Assembly (NCBI GenBank): GCA_021779635.1
Contig: JAJYAH010000572.1
Coordinates: forward strand, 1 to 5,088
DNA: 5,088 nt
Direction: 5' to 3'
From: Pseudomonadota bacterium
GTDB lineage: Bacteria; Pseudomonadota; Alphaproteobacteria; Rhizobiales; Xanthobacteraceae
A program made the translations under genes and the position numbers. Shown in pieces: positions 1-5,004 of this stretch. The notes below the pieces were generated by a model. It worked only from the letters and a program-made list of their open reading frames with translations, made no database searches and had not been told where the DNA came from. The number at the start of each line of letters is the position of its first letter. Positions within the stretch are counted from its first letter, which is position 1.

Positions 1-230
1 TGCGTTTCGAGCCCGGCGTTTTCACCACCAAGCCGTTCGTGCACGAATACTGGGAGGAGGTTTACCTGATCTCGGGCGATCTCACGGTCGGCAACGACGA
101 GCAAGGCAACGGCGGAGAATCCTTCGCGCCCAACACCTACGCCTCGCGGCCGCCTGGCGCCTGGCACGGCCCGTTCAAATCCGAGAAGGGCTGTCTGCTA
201 TTCGAAATACACTATTTTGATCCAGCCTGA
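1..230 (+). CDS. Cupin-domain protein, 3' part only (ChrR-like small cupin)
   Basis: This is the C-terminal part (75 full codons, reading from base 3) of a gene that begins outside the window; the stop is TGA at 228-230. The visible protein is one cupin beta-barrel half. Motif 1 reads H-E-Y-W-E-E-V-Y-L-I-S-G, which keeps the first His, the Glu and the final Gly of the cupin signature, but Tyr stands where the second His of HxH usually is. Motif 2 reads P-P-G-A-W-H-G-P-F, which keeps the Pro, Gly and metal-ligand His. A 'GCLLFEIHYF' strand near the end is typical of ChrR-type and small stand-alone cupins. Such proteins bind a divalent metal and act as dioxygenases, isomerases or sensors, and the substrate cannot be read from this fragment. 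The gene converges on the catabolic operon and lies 24 bp from its end, so it may belong to the same pathway, but nothing proves this. The first ATG visible in frame, at 39, falls inside the domain and is not the true start. Confidence 0.85.
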   Translation, partial: RFEPGVFTTKPFVHEYWEEVYLISGDLTVGNDEQGNGGESFAPNTYASRPPGAWHGPFKSEKGCLLFEIHYFDPA

Positions 231-242
231 CGCGCTGATCCA

Positions 243-267
243 CGCGGCGCACTCTTAGTGCGCCGCG
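243..267. terminator. Bidirectional hairpin between convergent genes
   Basis: There is a perfect 10-bp inverted repeat, CGCGGCGCAC (243-252) and GTGCGCCGCG (258-267), with a 5-nt TCTTA loop. It sits between the cupin stop (230) and the end of the minus-strand operon. The loop contains the operon's last stop codon (TAA on the minus strand, 255-257), and the right arm encodes the final Ala/His residues. Neither side has a strong T-run (GGCCGAAAAGTCTT follows on the plus strand), so it is not a classical intrinsic terminator. Position and symmetry still favour a role in ending or separating both transcripts, or in protecting their 3' ends. Confidence 0.55.
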
Positions 268-1451
268 GCCGAAAAGTCTTGCATCACAGCTGACTTGACA
301 ACCCGCGCCTTGCGAGTCGTCGCCGGCGTATTGCGGCTGCGCCCGATGAAGCGCGGCACGCCTGCACTAACGACCGCGCCAATCGCGGCAATGTCGCCAT
401 TCTTGATCGCATCAAGTGCCGTGCCTTGCGTGCCGCCATCCGGCGCATCGAGCAATACGATATCGGCGGCATGGCCCGCTTTCAGGAAACCACTGTCGAG
501 CCGATAGACTCGCGCATTGTTGCCGCTCGCGGCGCATATCGCCTGTTCCGGCGTCATGCTCGTGAGGCTCGCAAGATGCGCCAAGGTGTAGAGAATGCCG
601 AGCGGCATGATGCCGCTACCGGTCGGCGTGTCGGTCGCGATGATGAAGCGGTCGAACGCGTTCAACTCCAGCGCAAGCTTGCCGCACAAAAGCGTCGTTC
701 GCAGATTGCCCGCTGTGCAGACCTGAAGTGCGATCTCACTCTCCCGGATTACGCGCTCGAAATCGCGATCCGGCATGGCCGTCGGCCCACCATTGATATG
801 GAATGAGACATGCGGGTGCATCTTCAGAAGATGATCGCCGGTGATCGCGCCGGAACCGGGAATCGATGATCCGCCGGTATGGCAGGTGGTGATCAGACCG
901 GCCGCCTTGGCGCCGGCCACAAGCGGCACGTAATCATACGCTGTCTTCACCGCGCCAAAACCCGCCTTGGCGAGGCCGACGCCTTTCTTGGCGAGTTCGA
1001 CGAAATCTTCGTCCTTCAGGCCCGGCTCGAGAATGACAGAGCCGGCAATCACGCGCATACCGCCGGGGCGATAGTCAGCAAAGCAGCGCTGCGCCGCGAT
1101 CGCCAGCGCCTTAACGCCCTCCGCGTCGCGGGGCCGGCCCGGCACATGCACTTCGGAAGCCGAGATCGACGTAGTCACGCCACCGTGCAGATAGCTTTCG
1201 AGATAGCCGACCGTGCGCTGCCGCGGCGTGTAGTCGCCGAACGTAATGTGCACGTGAGAGTCGATCAGGCCGGGAATCGCAGTCATGCCGCCGGCGTCGA
1301 TCACCACATCACAGGCCTCGACGACGGAAACATCTGCCGTCCCGGCGCTAACAATCTTTCCGTCATGCGCCACAACCGTGTCGCCGTGAATGAAAGGGGA
1401 GCGCCAGTCGCCGGAAACAATTGTTCCGAGATTGGTGATTGCGACTCTCAT
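255..1451 (-). CDS. Enamidase-like metal-dependent amidohydrolase
   Basis: This 398-residue protein belongs to the amidohydrolase superfamily. It resembles Eubacterium barkeri enamidase (Ena, nicotinate fermentation), which hydrolyses 6-oxo-1,4,5,6-tetrahydronicotinate to 2-formylglutarate and ammonia. Stretches shared with Ena as I remember it are SGDxxSP near residue 13, GDYxPRQ (72-78), LHGGVTTxIS (88-97), PGRPxDAxGxKALAI (104-118), HTGGxSIPGS (191-200), HINGGPTA (218-225) and SRNTP (372-376). Predicted metal or catalytic residues are His66 and His68 (HVH after beta-strand 1), Lys162, His191, His218 and Asp274 (ATDTP). The N- and C-terminal strands (1-55 and 320-370) form the usual beta-sandwich around the TIM barrel. 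I chose the ATG at 1449-1451 because GGGGAGG lies 5 nt upstream and the family similarity starts there. A longer in-frame reading to 1652 only overlaps the upstream gene in another frame. The gap to the upstream monooxygenase gene is 14 bp, so the two are co-transcribed. The exact substrate is unknown; a cyclic amide, lactam or enamide fits best. Confidence 0.9.
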   Translation of the reverse strand: MRVAITNLGTIVSGDWRSPFIHGDTVVAHDGKIVSAGTADVSVVEACDVVIDAGGMTAIPGLIDSHVHITFGDYTPRQRTVGYLESYLHGGVTTSISASEVHVPGRPRDAEGVKALAIAAQRCFADYRPGGMRVIAGSVILEPGLKDEDFVELAKKGVGLAKAGFGAVKTAYDYVPLVAGAKAAGLITTCHTGGSSIPGSGAITGDHLLKMHPHVSFHINGGPTAMPDRDFERVIRESEIALQVCTAGNLRTTLLCGKLALELNAFDRFIIATDTPTGSGIMPLGILYTLAHLASLTSMTPEQAICAASGNNARVYRLDSGFLKAGHAADIVLLDAPDGGTQGTALDAIKNGDIAAIGAVVSAGVPRFIGRSRNTPATTRKARVVKSAVMQDFSAAAH

Positions 1452-1456
1452 ACTAA

Positions 1457-1463
1457 CCTCCCC
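1457..1463 (-). promoter_or_regulatory. Ribosome binding site deciding the amidohydrolase start
   Basis: GGGGAGG on the minus strand lies 5 nt before the ATG at 1451, inside the 14-nt gap after the monooxygenase stop codon (TAG, 1466-1468). It sets the start at 1451 and rules out the in-frame extension that runs back into the upstream gene. Confidence 0.8.
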
Positions 1464-1465
1464 GC

Positions 1466-2944
1466 CTAGTGTTTCACCTCGCCAAGTTCGTCGCTGAGAC
1501 TGTACGAGGCCATCAGGTTTTCGACCATCGCGGTTGCGGCGTTCCAGTCGTAGGTGCGGAAACTGTGGCCTGCCGTGACGAAACGCGCCCCCGCATAGAA
1601 CATCTCGTATTGCTGGTGACGAGAACCGAATTCGGAACCCACTGCGTCCCAACAGGCTTTGAGGAATTTCACCTTGTCCTCCGGCTCTAGATTCGCAGCA
1701 CGCTGGGTGGTGTGGATGATTTTGTTGAGCATGGGATCGCTAAAATCCTTGATCGAGGACGGCAGCATGATCATCGCGCCACCAGAGAGTTCGCGGATCG
1801 CATTGATGAACTGCGGATAGAGATCCTGCGTCAGCACCTGGGCCGAATACATGAAGTGCTTGTTGGGCACCCAATATTCGCCGGCCTTGGAGCCACTCGC
1901 TTCCATGCCCGACAGCATCGCTTCCACCATCGCGGCCTGCGCGGCCATGTAGCCGAGCTTCTCGCCAACGGACGGAATATTGGTGGTGCCGATCGCCTCG
2001 GTCAGCCGGCGGGCGAGACCGGCGAGAAAACGGAGCTTCACCGATAGACGGATTTGCGCCTGATAGTTCTGGTACGAGTGGCCCCAGGTATCGTGGAACT
2101 GCTGCCGACAGACGTCGGTGTCGCGGTAGACGAACAAGCGGTCCCAAGGCACCTTGACGTCATCGAAATAGATTAGCGCATCGTTCTCATCGAAACGCGA
2201 CGAGAGCGGATTGTCGAAGACAGATACCGCCGCGGCTTCATAGGACTTGCGCGACAGCACGCGGATGCCCTTGGCATTCATCGGCAGCGCGCAGGAAAAG
2301 GCAAGGTCTTCTTCGCCTGGTTTCAGCGGCTGCAAGTTGGCGACCAGCACCTCATTGGCCATGATCGAGGACGTTCCGAGCATCTTCGCGCCGCGGATCG
2401 TGATGCCGGTCGAGTCTTCATCGACGATGCGCGCGACAAGGTCCGGCACCTGATCGCCCCAGTTCTTGGCGCGTTCGGCTTGTGGATTGATGATCACATA
2501 GGTGAGAAACAGGTCAGTCTTCGTGGCGTAATCGACATAATCTTCGAGCGCCTTGGCCCGCTGCGGCCCATGCTTTCGGAAAACCTCAATGCCCATGCGC
2601 TGGCCGATCAAGGCGGACGCGACATGATCCGGCGAGCGGCCCATGAAGCCGAAATGTACGCGCGACCAGGCCTGCAGCGCCTTACGCCGCGTCACCATTT
2701 CCTCGTAGCTCCTCGGCATCTGCCAGGCGCGGTTGACGCGGCGGTTGGAACCTTCGGGCATGAAGGTCATCAATTCGATATTTTCTGGTTTCGCCTGATA
2801 GTCGTAGAGCGCGGCCGAGGACTGCACTACGTTGTGGAACGCGGGATGCGCCGTGACATCCTCTACCAAAGTACCATCGATGTAGACCGTGCGCCCGTCT
2901 CGCAAGGATGCGATGTGCTCGGCACCCGTCTTTGCAACCGTCAT
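1466..2944 (-). CDS. HpaB-family FADH2-dependent monooxygenase, oxygenase component
   Basis: This 492-residue cytosolic protein belongs to the 4-hydroxyphenylacetate 3-hydroxylase (HpaB/PvcC) family of two-component flavin monooxygenases (E. coli HpaB is 520 aa). These use FADH2 from a separate reductase to hydroxylate phenols and related rings. Shared landmarks are the N-terminal LRDGRxVYIDG (14-24), THPAF-like (AHPAF, 32-36), WSRxxxGxMGRSPD (93-106), NPQ (153-155), the mid-region GAKMLGTSS (185-193), NPLSSRFDEND (245-255), VPWDRLFVYRD (265-275), LPSS (394-397) and WDAVGSEFGSRHQQYE (432-447). The Arg of the substrate loop is kept (Arg103), but His107 and Tyr149 replace the Tyr and His that E. 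coli HpaB uses (Tyr117, His155), so the substrate is probably not 4-hydroxyphenylacetate. The Cys ligands of the related 4-hydroxybutyryl-CoA dehydratases are not evident. Start: the ATG at 2942-2944 has GGAG 6 nt upstream; a GTG at 2954-2956 would add MERN but overlaps that site. The gene is in the operon between the PF06684 gene (55 bp gap) and the amidohydrolase. No reductase gene is in the window. Confidence 0.92.
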   Translation of the reverse strand: MTVAKTGAEHIASLRDGRTVYIDGTLVEDVTAHPAFHNVVQSSAALYDYQAKPENIELMTFMPEGSNRRVNRAWQMPRSYEEMVTRRKALQAWSRVHFGFMGRSPDHVASALIGQRMGIEVFRKHGPQRAKALEDYVDYATKTDLFLTYVIINPQAERAKNWGDQVPDLVARIVDEDSTGITIRGAKMLGTSSIMANEVLVANLQPLKPGEEDLAFSCALPMNAKGIRVLSRKSYEAAAVSVFDNPLSSRFDENDALIYFDDVKVPWDRLFVYRDTDVCRQQFHDTWGHSYQNYQAQIRLSVKLRFLAGLARRLTEAIGTTNIPSVGEKLGYMAAQAAMVEAMLSGMEASGSKAGEYWVPNKHFMYSAQVLTQDLYPQFINAIRELSGGAMIMLPSSIKDFSDPMLNKIIHTTQRAANLEPEDKVKFLKACWDAVGSEFGSRHQQYEMFYAGARFVTAGHSFRTYDWNAATAMVENLMASYSLSDELGEVKH

Positions 2945-2950
2945 GTTTCG

Positions 2951-2954
2951 CTCC
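2951..2954 (-). promoter_or_regulatory. Ribosome binding site deciding the monooxygenase start
   Basis: GGAG (within GGTGGAG) lies 6 nt before the ATG at 2944. It overlaps the alternative GTG at 2954-2956, and that GTG has no purine-rich site of its own. The ATG is therefore the better start. Confidence 0.65.
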
Positions 2955-2999
2955 ACCAGATGCTTTGGTTGTTAGTCTGGCCGGGGACCGGCAAAACGA

Positions 3000-3596
3000 T
3001 TAAGTCAGTCCATCCTGACCTTTGATGTCAGCGGCAGACAGGCCGCCAACCCGATGATTTGGCCGGCCGCGCGTGGCGTAAACAGCGATAATCGCGATCT
3101 CGTTCGGCTGCGGCGCATCCGGCAGTGTCAAGGTCATGCCATCGTAATGCGAACGCACGTAAAGCGCATCCTTGTGCGCCAGGGGAATGTCGATCATCGC
3201 GCCCGGCGATGCGCGCTTGGTCATCGACGAAATCCATGCCTTGCCGCCGCCGACCGCCTCACGCATCACATTGCCAAATACGGTGGTAAGCATGGCGTTG
3301 CCATGCTCCTGCTCGCCATTGATACCAACCACCGCGGCCTTGCCATAGCTCACTGCCCGGTCCGGCGCCAACAGTCGCACAGCGATTGAGCAGATTTCGC
3401 GCCCGATCGCCTCGCTCGCTTGCGTCAGCGGCGACAGATCGTGCACGAAACGACCGGCAAAGGGATTGTCGATGATCGCAACCGCCGCCGCCTTGCGCAG
3501 CGGCGGCACCGTCTCGCGCGCGTCTGCCGATCGAATCTCGTCAACAAACGTCATTAGACGCTTGATTCGTATGGTGTCGGCGTCCAATTCGGTCAT
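3000..3596 (-). CDS. Amino acid synthesis family protein (PF06684, former DUF1185)
   Basis: This 198-residue cytosolic protein has no signal peptide or membrane segment. It matches the PF06684 'amino acid synthesis' family by several blocks I recognise: RKAAAVAIIDNPFAGRFVHDL (34-54), SYGKAAVVGINGEQEHGNAM (83-102), GGGKAWISS.TKRASPGAMIDIPLAHKDALYVRSHYD (116-152) and GRPNHRVGGL (177-186). Despite its name, no reaction is established for the family that I know of. Its members often sit beside amidohydrolases, flavin monooxygenases and ABC transporters in proteobacterial catabolic clusters. The conserved Lys, Glu, His and Arg residues in the GKAA, GEQEHGNA and AHKDALYVRSHYD blocks look like an active or ligand-binding site (inference). 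The start at 3594-3596 follows GGGAGGGG by 5 nt; a TTG at 3617 would add seven residues, but it precedes that site. This is the first gene of the minus-strand operon and is divergent from the binding-protein gene. Confidence 0.88.
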   Translation of the reverse strand: MTELDADTIRIKRLMTFVDEIRSADARETVPPLRKAAAVAIIDNPFAGRFVHDLSPLTQASEAIGREICSIAVRLLAPDRAVSYGKAAVVGINGEQEHGNAMLTTVFGNVMREAVGGGKAWISSMTKRASPGAMIDIPLAHKDALYVRSHYDGMTLTLPDAPQPNEIAIIAVYATRGRPNHRVGGLSAADIKGQDGLT

Positions 3597-3601
3597 CGTC
3601 G

Positions 3602-3609
3602 CCCCTCCC
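3602..3609 (-). promoter_or_regulatory. Ribosome binding site of the PF06684 gene
   Basis: GGGAGGGG lies 5 nt upstream of the ATG at 3596. Its strength and spacing choose this ATG over the in-frame TTG at 3615-3617. Confidence 0.75.
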
Positions 3610-3645
3610 GATCGCAAAACTATCTTCCACAGTTACATAACTCAC

Positions 3646-3692
3646 GAAGCTTTTCAAGCTCGCTTTCTGATGCTAAGCTTCACGCAAGCGAG
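3646..3692. promoter_or_regulatory. Cluster of AAGC/GCTT inverted repeats, possible operator or enhancer
   Basis: Two interlaced 7-bp perfect inverted repeats are visible: GAAGCTT (3646-3652) with AAGCTTC (3675-3681), and CTCGCTT (3659-3665) with AAGCGAG (3686-3692). A tight one, AGCTT-TTC-AAGCT (3648-3660), lies within. AAGC starts at 3647, 3656, 3675 and 3686. Relative to a start site near 3752 predicted from the sigma-54 motif, the block covers about -106 to -60, a usual place for an enhancer-binding activator. It is also close to the start of the minus-strand operon. Which protein binds, if any, is unknown. Confidence 0.4.
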
Positions 3693-3724
3693 GCCTGAGG
3701 AGTCTGCTTGGGCATACTTCTCGA

Positions 3725-3741
3725 TTGGCACAAGGATCGCA
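3725..3741 (+). promoter_or_regulatory. Candidate sigma-54 (-24/-12) promoter
   Basis: TTGGCAC at 3725-3731 and TCGCA at 3737-3741 match the sigma-54 consensus TGGCAC-N5-TTGCA with one mismatch (C for the second T of the -12 element). The invariant GG (3727-3728) and GC (3739-3740) have exactly the required 10-bp separation. Transcription would start near 3752, giving a leader of about 23 nt with the ribosome binding site at 3762-3767. Sigma-54 promoters need an NtrC-type activator and often serve nitrogen assimilation, which fits uptake of a nitrogenous compound. Confidence 0.55.
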
Positions 3742-3761
3742 GGAAAGAAACGCGACGAACA

Positions 3762-3767
3762 GGGAGG
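3762..3767 (+). promoter_or_regulatory. Ribosome binding site deciding the binding-protein start
   Basis: GGGAGG lies 7 nt before the ATG at 3775. The reading frame stays open back to 3466, but only this start gives a protein that begins with a normal signal peptide. Confidence 0.8.
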
Positions 3768-3774
3768 TTTCCGC

Positions 3775-5004
3775 ATGACGTCCAGTTTGACCAAGGTGCT
3801 CGGTGCAGCGGGGCTCGCGGCGGCGCTGTCGGGAATCATCGCAAGCGGCCCCGTTCACGCGGCGAGCGCCGAGATCGTACTGGGCGCCATTGTGCCGTCG
3901 AGTGGCCCATTCGCCGAATGGGGCCGCACCAATACGGCGACACTGCAAATGCTGGAGAAACAGGTCAACGATGCTGGTGGTGTCAACGGCGCCAAGTTAC
4001 GCATCGTGATCCTCGATGACGCTACCAAGCCGGCGCAGGCGACCAACGATCTTCGCAAACTCGCCGGCGACGATCACGTGCTCGCGGTGGCCGGCCCGCT
4101 GACCTCGAGCGCGGCGGAGGTCACCTTCCCGGTCGCCAACGAAATGAAAGTCGTTGCGACATCGCAGGCTTCGTCAAAGCCCGGCGTAGCCAAGAACAAC
4201 CGCCCCTGGGCGTTCCGAAATACCATTGACGAAAGTGTGCTCGGCCGCGCCACCGTGCCGTATTACAAGAAGGCCTTCAACATCAAGAGCGTGGCGATCA
4301 TCTTCGACGCGAAGGACGCAACGGCCGCCACGGTCGGCAGTAAGATCATGCCCGGTCTGATGAAAGAAAACGGCATTGAGGTTCTCAACGCCAACGATCC
4401 GCTGTCCTTCAACACCGGCGACCTCGACGTCAGCGCGCAGGTGACCAAGATCAAGGCGCTCAATCCTGACGGCGTCGTCGTCAGCGCCGACTACAGCCAG
4501 GCCGTCACTGTGATTCGCGAAATGAAGCGTCAGGGCGTGATCAAGCCGGTTGTCGGCTCAACACAGCTGATTTCGTCCGCTATCCTGAAAGCCGCGCCCG
4601 AGATTCCGATCGTGGCACCCGCGACCTTCTACGCCAGCATGCCCGGCGACAAGCCGCAGACGTTTGTTAAGGAACTGACGCCGCTGTTGCACAAGATATC
4701 CGGCCTGCCAGCCGAGATCGAACCCTCAATGTACGACGCCAATATCTACGAAATCGGCAGCATCTATATCGATGCGATCAAGAAAGCCGGCGTTACAGGT
4801 AAGCCGGAGGACCTCGAAGCCGACCGCACGAAAATTCGCGACTACATGACAAAGCTTTCGGGCTTCCCCGGCCTCGGCGGCCCGATCGCTTTCAACCAGG
4901 ATGGCGATGCAATCAAGGCATTCTACATCGTGCAGGGCCAGAACGGTGCGTGGGAATCGAAAGTCCGCGGGTGCAGCGCGCCGGATGGCAAGCACGGCTG
5001 CTGA
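3775..5004 (+). CDS. Periplasmic ABC transporter substrate-binding protein (LivJ/LivK-type, Peripla_BP_6)
   Basis: This 409-residue precursor is the binding protein of a branched-chain amino acid/amide-type (HAAT) ABC importer, which captures a ligand in the periplasm and delivers it to membrane permeases. Residues 1-29 form a signal peptide: Lys7, a hydrophobic Ala/Leu/Gly core, and VHA before the cleavage site (ASA at 30-32 is an alternative). The mature part opens with the family hallmark IVLGAIVPSSGPFAEWG (34-50), then VNDAGGVNGAKLRIVILDD (64-82) and GPLTSSA (107-113), where LivJ-type proteins contact the ligand backbone with Ser/Thr. The length suits the family. These proteins bind amino acids, amides, urea or aromatic acids, and the sequence alone does not say which. 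The only two cysteines, 400 and 409, lie in the C-terminal tail and could form a disulfide. The gene is divergent from the catabolic operon and shares its control region, so its ligand is probably that pathway's substrate (inference). Permease and ATPase genes are not in the window; they may follow beyond the right edge. Confidence 0.93.
   Translation: MTSSLTKVLGAAGLAAALSGIIASGPVHAASAEIVLGAIVPSSGPFAEWGRTNTATLQMLEKQVNDAGGVNGAKLRIVILDDATKPAQATNDLRKLAGDDHVLAVAGPLTSSAAEVTFPVANEMKVVATSQASSKPGVAKNNRPWAFRNTIDESVLGRATVPYYKKAFNIKSVAIIFDAKDATAATVGSKIMPGLMKENGIEVLNANDPLSFNTGDLDVSAQVTKIKALNPDGVVVSADYSQAVTVIREMKRQGVIKPVVGSTQLISSAILKAAPEIPIVAPATFYASMPGDKPQTFVKELTPLLHKISGLPAEIEPSMYDANIYEIGSIYIDAIKKAGVTGKPEDLEADRTKIRDYMTKLSGFPGLGGPIAFNQDGDAIKAFYIVQGQNGAWESKVRGCSAPDGKHGC

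Follow-up and report, generated by a model that had tools for sequence, protein, structure and literature searches.

Proteins of the PF06684 family (DUF1185, AA_synth) are regular companions of enamidase homologs, including those of distant bacteria, and this partnership is the stronger and most useful result of the present analysis of a 5,088-nt stretch of alphaproteobacterial DNA (contig JAJYAH010000572.1 of assembly GCA_021779635.1, from a member of the Xanthobacteraceae; hereafter, the window). The window contains five clear reading frames. Three of them, which encode a PF06684 protein, an HpaB-type oxygenase component and an enamidase-like amidohydrolase (hereafter, the trio), form a putative operon, and the linkage of these three genes is conserved across genomes; their substrate and reactions are proposed only. 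We slightly favor the interpretation, with a probability of roughly 0.55, that this operon is an oxidative branch of the enamidase-type catabolism of nitrogen-containing (N-) heteroaromatic compounds.

The three genes are co-directional on the minus strand, in the order PF06684 (3000-3596, 198 amino acids), HpaB (1466-2944, 492 amino acids) and amidohydrolase (255-1451, 398 amino acids), with gaps of 55 bp (2945-2999) and 14 bp (1452-1465). Position 3596 is the start codon of the PF06684 gene, and the starts of the trio genes are preceded by purine-rich stretches. The Pfam assignments are above the cut-off for the four complete proteins of the window and below it for the fifth, a truncated cupin. 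An earlier note, made from the sequence alone, had described this arrangement, and the reading frames, coordinates and Pfam assignments confirm the direction, gaps and families that it gave. A weak terminator-like hairpin with a T-rich tail is located at the end of the PF06684 gene (3002-3021, minus strand; 7 such sites were found compared to 5.0 expected from shuffled sequences) and is possibly a partial terminator inside the putative operon.

Conservation of the trio across genomes

We scanned genomes with the HpaB protein and retained the best 80 of 155 loci (L001-L080). The top match is a Bradyrhizobium metagenome-assembled contig (L001) that carries the same locus, with 98-100% identity for the four complete proteins. 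Genes in the loci were identified using tblastn and a codon-based caller, with some starts mis-set and almost no genes called in the low-GC Bacillus loci. When all three proteins were required to match over more than 90% of their length, with at least 55% identity for HpaB and at least 60% for the enamidase homolog, the trio was found in 22 rows that represent 21 distinct loci (L146 duplicates L004), several of which are closely related and hence do not amount to 21 independent cases. Five gene orders are represented, namely that of the window (10 loci), HpaB-enamidase-PF06684 (2 loci), a PF06684-enamidase pair divergent from HpaB (7 loci) and two further orders with a single locus each. Because the same three proteins recur in 21 distinct loci and in five orders, the grouping exceeds chance, and its reassembly in five arrangements argues for a functional bond as opposed to an inherited neighborhood alone. 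A search for the trio in other genomes had been proposed on the basis of the window, and the grouping proves more conserved than one sequence could show.

Among the 32 loci with HpaB of at least 60% identity, 20 contain the enamidase homolog within 8 kb of HpaB, 21 contain PF06684 and 18 contain both (all counts at 8 kb, here and below, include loci truncated by contig ends). Six genomes were probed via their HpaB loci; five contain an enamidase match, which is adjacent to HpaB in one of them. In Xanthobacter tagetidis, Roseococcus and Rhodopseudomonas 2.1.18, the enamidase gene and HpaB are on different contigs, and in Aquabacter they are separated by about 10.5 kb; the enamidase gene adjoins PF06684 in all four. 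We also observe two different HpaB genes (62% and 59%) together with genes for an amidase, a cupin and a flavin reductase in Aquabacter spiritensis (L023:9980-15322), where the distance of about 10.5 kb is that to the first HpaB gene.

No match of at least 150 amino acids to 6-hydroxynicotinate reductase was detected in the 21 trio loci (13-21 kb of DNA each) or in L001-L080. Because this enzyme is missing from the DNA examined at all 21 trio loci, a classical reductive nicotinate operon is ruled out and an oxidative rather than a reductive route fits, in agreement with the earlier argument that the operon is not simply a copy of the known pathway. Genes of the molybdenum (Mo)-hydroxylase family, which includes N-heteroarene hydroxylases, are present in the DNA stretches of six of the 21 trio loci and are 28-30% identical to the nicotinate-type enzyme. 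In the literature searched, which was largely open-access, we found neither an HpaB-enamidase operon nor a PF06684-enamidase partnership, which is not proof of their absence from print.

PF06684 and the two classes of enamidase homologs

The PF06684 protein of the window scores 211.7 bits against the family profile (gathering cut-off 27) and has relatives with solved structures (2qtp and 3byq). A Foldseek search with its model (predicted local distance difference test, pLDDT, 93) retrieved its own family only at E 0.001, with Rid-like rows appearing only in a second look, and a Pfam scan at E 0.001 gave AA_synth alone, without support for membership in the Rid (YjgF/RutC) family. In the alignment, N44, K86, H98, R112, K127, H141, R148, S149, D152 and R182 are invariant. 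The family has been tied to amino acid metabolism through neighboring branched-chain amino acid transporters, according to the accessible part of PMC2954203, and the window gene has neighbors of the same transporter type.

We searched 297 genomes from the order of Bradyrhizobium, with thresholds of E 1e-60 for enamidase, 1e-80 for HpaB and 1e-25 for PF06684. Enamidase homologs are present in 57 of these genomes, at 12 places with at least 62% identity to the window protein and at 50 places with 42-47%. PF06684 is encoded in 98 genomes of the order, including 56 of the 57 that contain enamidase (p 2.7e-32), and lies within 2 kb of the enamidase gene at 10 of the 12 places of the first class and within 12 kb at no fewer than 32 of the 50 places of the second class. 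The bond is one-sided in this order because 42 genomes with PF06684 have no enamidase at the threshold used. Among 299 genomes from the phylum of Neobacillus (PF06684 at E 1e-20), PF06684 was detected in 11 and enamidase in 14, and all 11 PF06684 genomes also encode enamidase (p 1e-17). In the 12 stretches that cover these 11 genomes, both genes are found together in 11 (10 of the 11 genomes), and in eight stretches (eight of the 11 genomes) they are accompanied by 6-hydroxynicotinate reductase, the identity of which in these counts rests on the depositors' names. The exception is a stretch (L197 of G344) that ends near a contig edge, with the enamidase match on another contig.

These results modify two claims of the earlier note. 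Enamidase had been treated as clostridial, which does not hold given its homologs in 57 genomes of the order of Bradyrhizobium, with 6-hydroxynicotinate reductase in some of the loci. PF06684, for which the operon had been seen as a way to a biochemical role, is not special to this operon and accompanies enamidase homologs in nearly all of the sampled genomes of the order that contain one. Overall, the earlier interpretation is partly supported, being right in direction and in need of correction on these two points.

The amidohydrolase of the window aligns with the solved enamidase 2vun (enzyme class EC 3.5.2.18) over residues 3-384 with 332.9 bits, compared to 33 bits for the next solved protein, so that it is a close relative of enamidase, and it scores 50.6 bits against Amidohydro_1. 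The candidate metal ligands H66, H68, E142, H191, H218 and D274, which we take to be the metal-site residues of the superfamily, are invariant in 19 aligned proteins, except for Q at position 66 in L015. The glutamate of the enamidase motif GEVG, presumably a bridging residue, is replaced by Lys162 (codon 966-968) in the window protein and in all 12 aligned members of its class, whereas it is retained in 2vun and in all seven aligned members of the other class. Amidohydrolases carry either a bridging glutamate or a carboxylated lysine at the aligned site, and Lys162 may be a carboxylated-lysine metal bridge. The window protein is 44-47% identical to the other class, and 20 positions, including that of Lys162, are fixed differently between the two classes (12 vs 7 proteins).

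The two classes also differ in their association with HpaB, which is encoded within 10 kb at eight of the 12 places of the class with at least 62% identity (within 2 kb at seven; the eighth is a 40% homolog) compared to none of the 50 places of the 42-47% class. Anywhere in the genome, HpaB is found in 10 of the 12 genomes of the former class (eight with at least 52% identity) compared to 41 of the 297 genomes overall (Fisher p 4.8e-8 and 9.6e-6, uncorrected for phylogeny). In L129, a locus of the 42-47% class, an HpaB relative of lower similarity (27-28%) is located, together with a flavin reductase, about 6.4 kb from the enamidase gene. Members of the window's class that are located away from HpaB are paired with PF06684 beside an annotated flavin adenine dinucleotide (FAD)-dependent monooxygenase on an Agrobacterium vitis plasmid, and clustered with PF06684, Mo-hydroxylase and succinate-semialdehyde dehydrogenase genes in Mesorhizobium (the gene tables of this collection are incomplete). 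Different ring-oxidizing enzymes may therefore feed one hydrolytic module.

Among 12 inspected loci of the 42-47% class, nine contain PF06684 and four (L126, L127, L128 and L131) encode a 459-amino acid protein to which, in L126, neither Pfam nor NCBIfam assigns a name. This protein was identified as 6-hydroxynicotinate reductase by the depositors' names of its homologs in a plasmid collection; Mo-hydroxylase is present in three of the four loci, and so is UPF0280. By this gene content, these loci are reductive nicotinate clusters of alphaproteobacteria. A Fuscovulum plasmid carries consecutive genes for Mo-hydroxylase, 6-hydroxynicotinate reductase, UPF0280 and PF06684, with no enamidase match on the plasmid. 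In L121-L125 (18-kb stretches with the enamidase gene at about 7.8-9.7 kb), two PF06684 genes are found together with those for MarR, an isochorismatase-family hydrolase, nucleoside hydrolases and an ATP-binding cassette (ABC) transporter (families were scanned in L121 or L122 only), a gene set suggestive of the uptake of a nucleoside or riboside, the base of which would enter an enamidase route.

The PF06684 family has more than 5,000 homologs in one search and two solved structures, and we saw no settled reaction for it. Its linkage to enamidase hints at a biochemical job for this orphan family, and co-occurrence of the two in two distant groups of bacteria narrows the question of its function to a short in vitro test.

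The HpaB-type oxygenase and its neighborhood

The oxygenase component belongs, by its domains, to the group D two-component flavin monooxygenases, which depend on reduced FAD (FADH2); it matches HpaB_N with 281 bits (residues 6-272) and the HpaB C-terminal domain with 183 bits (residues 279-478). Its best solved relatives are 4-hydroxyphenylacetate 3-monooxygenases. Its scores are below both NCBIfam HpaB equivalog cut-offs (293.5 vs 885.2 bits and 289.5 vs 480.2 bits), and a true 4-hydroxyphenylacetate hydroxylase was accordingly rejected. A coenzyme A dehydratase or isomerase role was set low, given that such relatives score 83-91 bits compared to up to 260 bits for hydroxylases.

The amide hydrolase encoded beside HpaB varies. 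Across the 80 retained loci, it is an enamidase homolog in 20, an amidase in 23 and a CN_hydrolase in seven; in 30 none was found, and no locus contains two. Thus, three unrelated families of amide hydrolases replace one another beside HpaB, suggesting that the HpaB product holds an amide-like C-N bond. In two loci beyond the 80 that were found via enamidase (L137 and L140), enamidase and amidase genes are about 3 kb apart. The 41 loci with HpaB of 50-60% identity contain within 8 kb a flavin reductase (39), a cupin (39), DUF2848 (32) or an amidase (21), and neither enamidase nor PF06684 was found at that distance. All seven loci with HpaB below 50% (six from Bacillaceae and one from Streptomyces) contain CN_hydrolase.

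In the closest relatives of the window, the trio is accompanied by genes for MarR, two Liv permeases, two ABC ATPases (LivHMGF), a PF01613 flavin reductase, a cupin and DUF2848. The flavin reductase is encoded in the near-identical locus L001 (the family was assigned via L005), outside the window itself. These additional genes are not universal: flavin reductase, cupin and DUF2848 are each found within 8 kb in eight of the 20 enamidase-containing HpaB loci, and in nine, nine and eight, respectively, of the 32 loci with HpaB of at least 60%. A binding-protein homolog of at least 60% identity is present within 8 kb in 17 of these 32 loci. Of the shared neighbors anticipated from the window, the Liv-type transporter and the flavin reductase are thus recovered, whereas aldehyde dehydrogenase is encoded in only one of the 21 trio loci (L005, two genes located about 4 kb or more past DUF2848).

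In the window itself, the gene for the branched-chain-amino-acid-type ABC substrate-binding protein (Peripla_BP_6, LivJ-like, 168.8 bits; 3775-5004, plus strand) is divergent from the trio and, in related loci (examined in L005), precedes genes for two permeases and two ATPases. The 178-bp region between the divergent genes (3597-3774) is presumably regulatory; no match to the sigma-70 consensus was found in it. At the other end, the window cuts a gene for a small ChrR-like cupin, the C-terminal end of which (3-230, plus strand) is convergent with the amidohydrolase gene and scores 23 bits against Cupin_7 (cut-off 27). The full-length cupin of L005 is also just under this cut-off (25.9 bits), and the sole solved match of the cupin at E 0.1 is ChrR (E 0.0013).

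Pfam lists DUF2848 (PF11010; L005:13707-14384) without a function. The fumarylacetoacetate hydrolase (FAH) fold is predicted for it, given that its model (pLDDT 93) matches structures of the FAH family such as Cg1458 (4dbf, E 1e-10). Proteobacteria, Bacillaceae and one Streptomyces all have DUF2848 beside HpaB in some of their loci. The clusters of Neobacillus niacini (L074:4808-15799) and Streptomyces (L080:9420-17851) combine HpaB with flavin reductase, DUF2848, cupin, CN_hydrolase and, nearby, a UbiD-type decarboxylase. The UbiD upstream of HpaB in L074 has as its closest solved structure 6h6v, which we take to be the five-ring (furan) decarboxylase HmfF. In L018, L024 and L028, HpaB (61-62%) is located beside a cytochrome P450 (the family was scanned in L018, and the same gene family is found in the other two), with no trio in the stretch; L018 and L028 also contain a ferredoxin-reductase-like protein.

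A proposed route, its alternatives and known systems

In the proposed route, the binding protein and LivHMGF would import an aromatic N-heterocycle, and HpaB would oxidize the ring using FADH2 from the flavin reductase, the gene for which, in the closest relatives of the window, is located a few genes away. The enamidase-like amidohydrolase would hydrolyze the resulting cyclic or N-acyl enamide to an enamine or imine, and the PF06684 protein, acting right after or together with it, would most likely speed the conversion of this product to a carbonyl compound and ammonia. This role is in line with TgnF, a PF06684 protein that is described in PMC7913881 as helping a step of trigonelline degradation. 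In the window's own clade, breakdown of the carbon skeleton is probably completed by the cupin and DUF2848. The link to HpaB in this operon suggests that an oxygen-dependent route has taken up the enamidase step; if true, this would add a modular way to free ammonia from aromatic N rings in soil. We further advance, tentatively and at somewhat less than even odds, the idea that PF06684 proteins are enamine/imine deaminases or tautomerases that partner enamide-cleaving ring-opening enzymes in reductive and (here) oxidative N-heteroaromatic degradation, and so might be the counterpart of RutC for non-uracil ring nitrogen.

It is doubtful, if only slightly more so than this idea, that PF06684, instead of being the next enzyme, acts as an accessory protein (activator, scaffold or tautomer trap) or decarboxylates the 2-formyl dicarboxylates that arise after enamide hydrolysis. 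Such a function would be consistent with the stimulation of succinic-semialdehyde oxidation that is described for TgnF in the accessible part of PMC7913881. It would also suit 2-formylglutarate in nicotinate degradation and, by inference, formylsuccinate in trigonelline degradation, both beta-aldehyde acids that could decarboxylate, and the adjacent pairs of PF06684 genes that several loci of the 42-47% class contain, with 6-hydroxynicotinate reductase in two of these loci (L126 and L127); however, the many invariant charged and histidine residues of the family resemble an active site more than a scaffold. It is highly improbable that the amidohydrolase is a ring-cleaving dioxygenase rather than a hydrolase. 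Its model would be KpiC, a PF01979 protein that shares 28% identity with enamidase and, in the accessible part of PMC7356986, opens 3,4-dihydroxypyridine with the addition of two oxygen atoms. The class-wide Lys162 could be taken in favor of this reading. Against it, the amidohydrolase shares 44-47% identity with the other enamidase class, and the His, Glu and Asp positions are retained, save for the one Gln in L015.

Two more specific substrates can be considered, both unlikely. With a hydroxypyridine, HpaB would produce a pyridinediol, the cupin would open the ring, the enamidase-like enzyme would remove the N-acyl group, PF06684 would deaminate the enamine and DUF2848 would cleave an acylpyruvate to central metabolites. 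All enzyme genes of the window's clade would be used, the FAH fold predicted for DUF2848 would suit the last step, and the cupin and DUF2848 do recur near HpaB, particularly in the loci with 50-60% identity, but each of them is found within 8 kb in only eight of the 20 HpaB loci that contain enamidase. The only solved match of the cupin at E 0.1 is ChrR, and we know of no dioxygenase activity for this cupin, which also weighs against such a scheme. The reaction types (monooxygenase, ring-opening enzyme, hydrolase and FAH-type hydrolase) match those of the kpi pathway for 4-hydroxypyridine as presented in the accessible part of PMC7356986, so that this would be a kpi-like route carried out by different protein families. 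Pyrrole-2-carboxylate is a distinctly weaker candidate. HpaB and the reductase would convert it to 5-hydroxypyrrole-2-carboxylate, the keto form of which is a cyclic enamide. The ring would be opened by the enamidase-like enzyme, and PF06684 would deaminate dehydroglutamate to yield 2-oxoglutarate and ammonia directly, so that three enzymes and a reductase suffice, as in those trio loci that have neither cupin nor DUF2848. The similarity of the L074 UbiD to 6h6v is in line with this substrate, and pyrrole-2-carboxylate monooxygenase (EC 1.14.13.130) is among the group D two-component enzymes in the accessible part of PMC6165268. Nevertheless, this comparison is by the group D listing, and the product and ring opening are presumed for the known pathway. 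Such a substrate would leave the cupin and DUF2848 without a function, and the succinate-semialdehyde dehydrogenase in one PF06684-enamidase cluster, a stretch with no annotated HpaB, points to another product. We found no supporting paper for Xanthobacter tagetidis on pyrrole-2-carboxylate in the literature searched; thiophene-2-carboxylic, acetic and ketoglutaric acids are the only organic substrates named in the accessible part of the genome note for this organism.

The oxidative enamidase-type branch that we favor shares features with several known systems. The Rut pathway for uracil (RutA, RutB, RutC) is, to our knowledge, not among them, with none of the three protein families of the trio in common. 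The trigonelline pathway of Acinetobacter baylyi (tgnABCDEF) employs the luciferase-type oxygenase TgnA, unlike HpaB, and we know of no enamidase-type amidohydrolase in it. What it has in common with the window, as we know the pathway, is a two-component flavin oxygenase acting on an N-heterocycle, amide/enamine hydrolysis and a PF06684 protein (for the homology of TgnF, see the accessible part of PMC7913881). The kpi pathway of Arthrobacter sp. IN13, in the accessible part of PMC7356986, likewise includes a flavin monooxygenase, the amidohydrolase-family relative of enamidase and an FAH-type hydrolase; by contrast, KpiB is an alpha/beta hydrolase, KpiA (41 kDa) is smaller than HpaB, and no PF06684 protein is named in that part of the description. 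The reductive nicotinate pathway of the Eubacterium barkeri type has in common with the window an enamidase-type amidohydrolase, one or more PF06684 proteins and, in some loci, MarR and a Liv-type transporter. In contrast to that pathway, the window operon includes HpaB and, in its relatives, a flavin reductase, with no 6-hydroxynicotinate reductase, and its enamidase represents a separate subclass that is set apart by the 20 class-fixed differences, including Lys162 for Glu.

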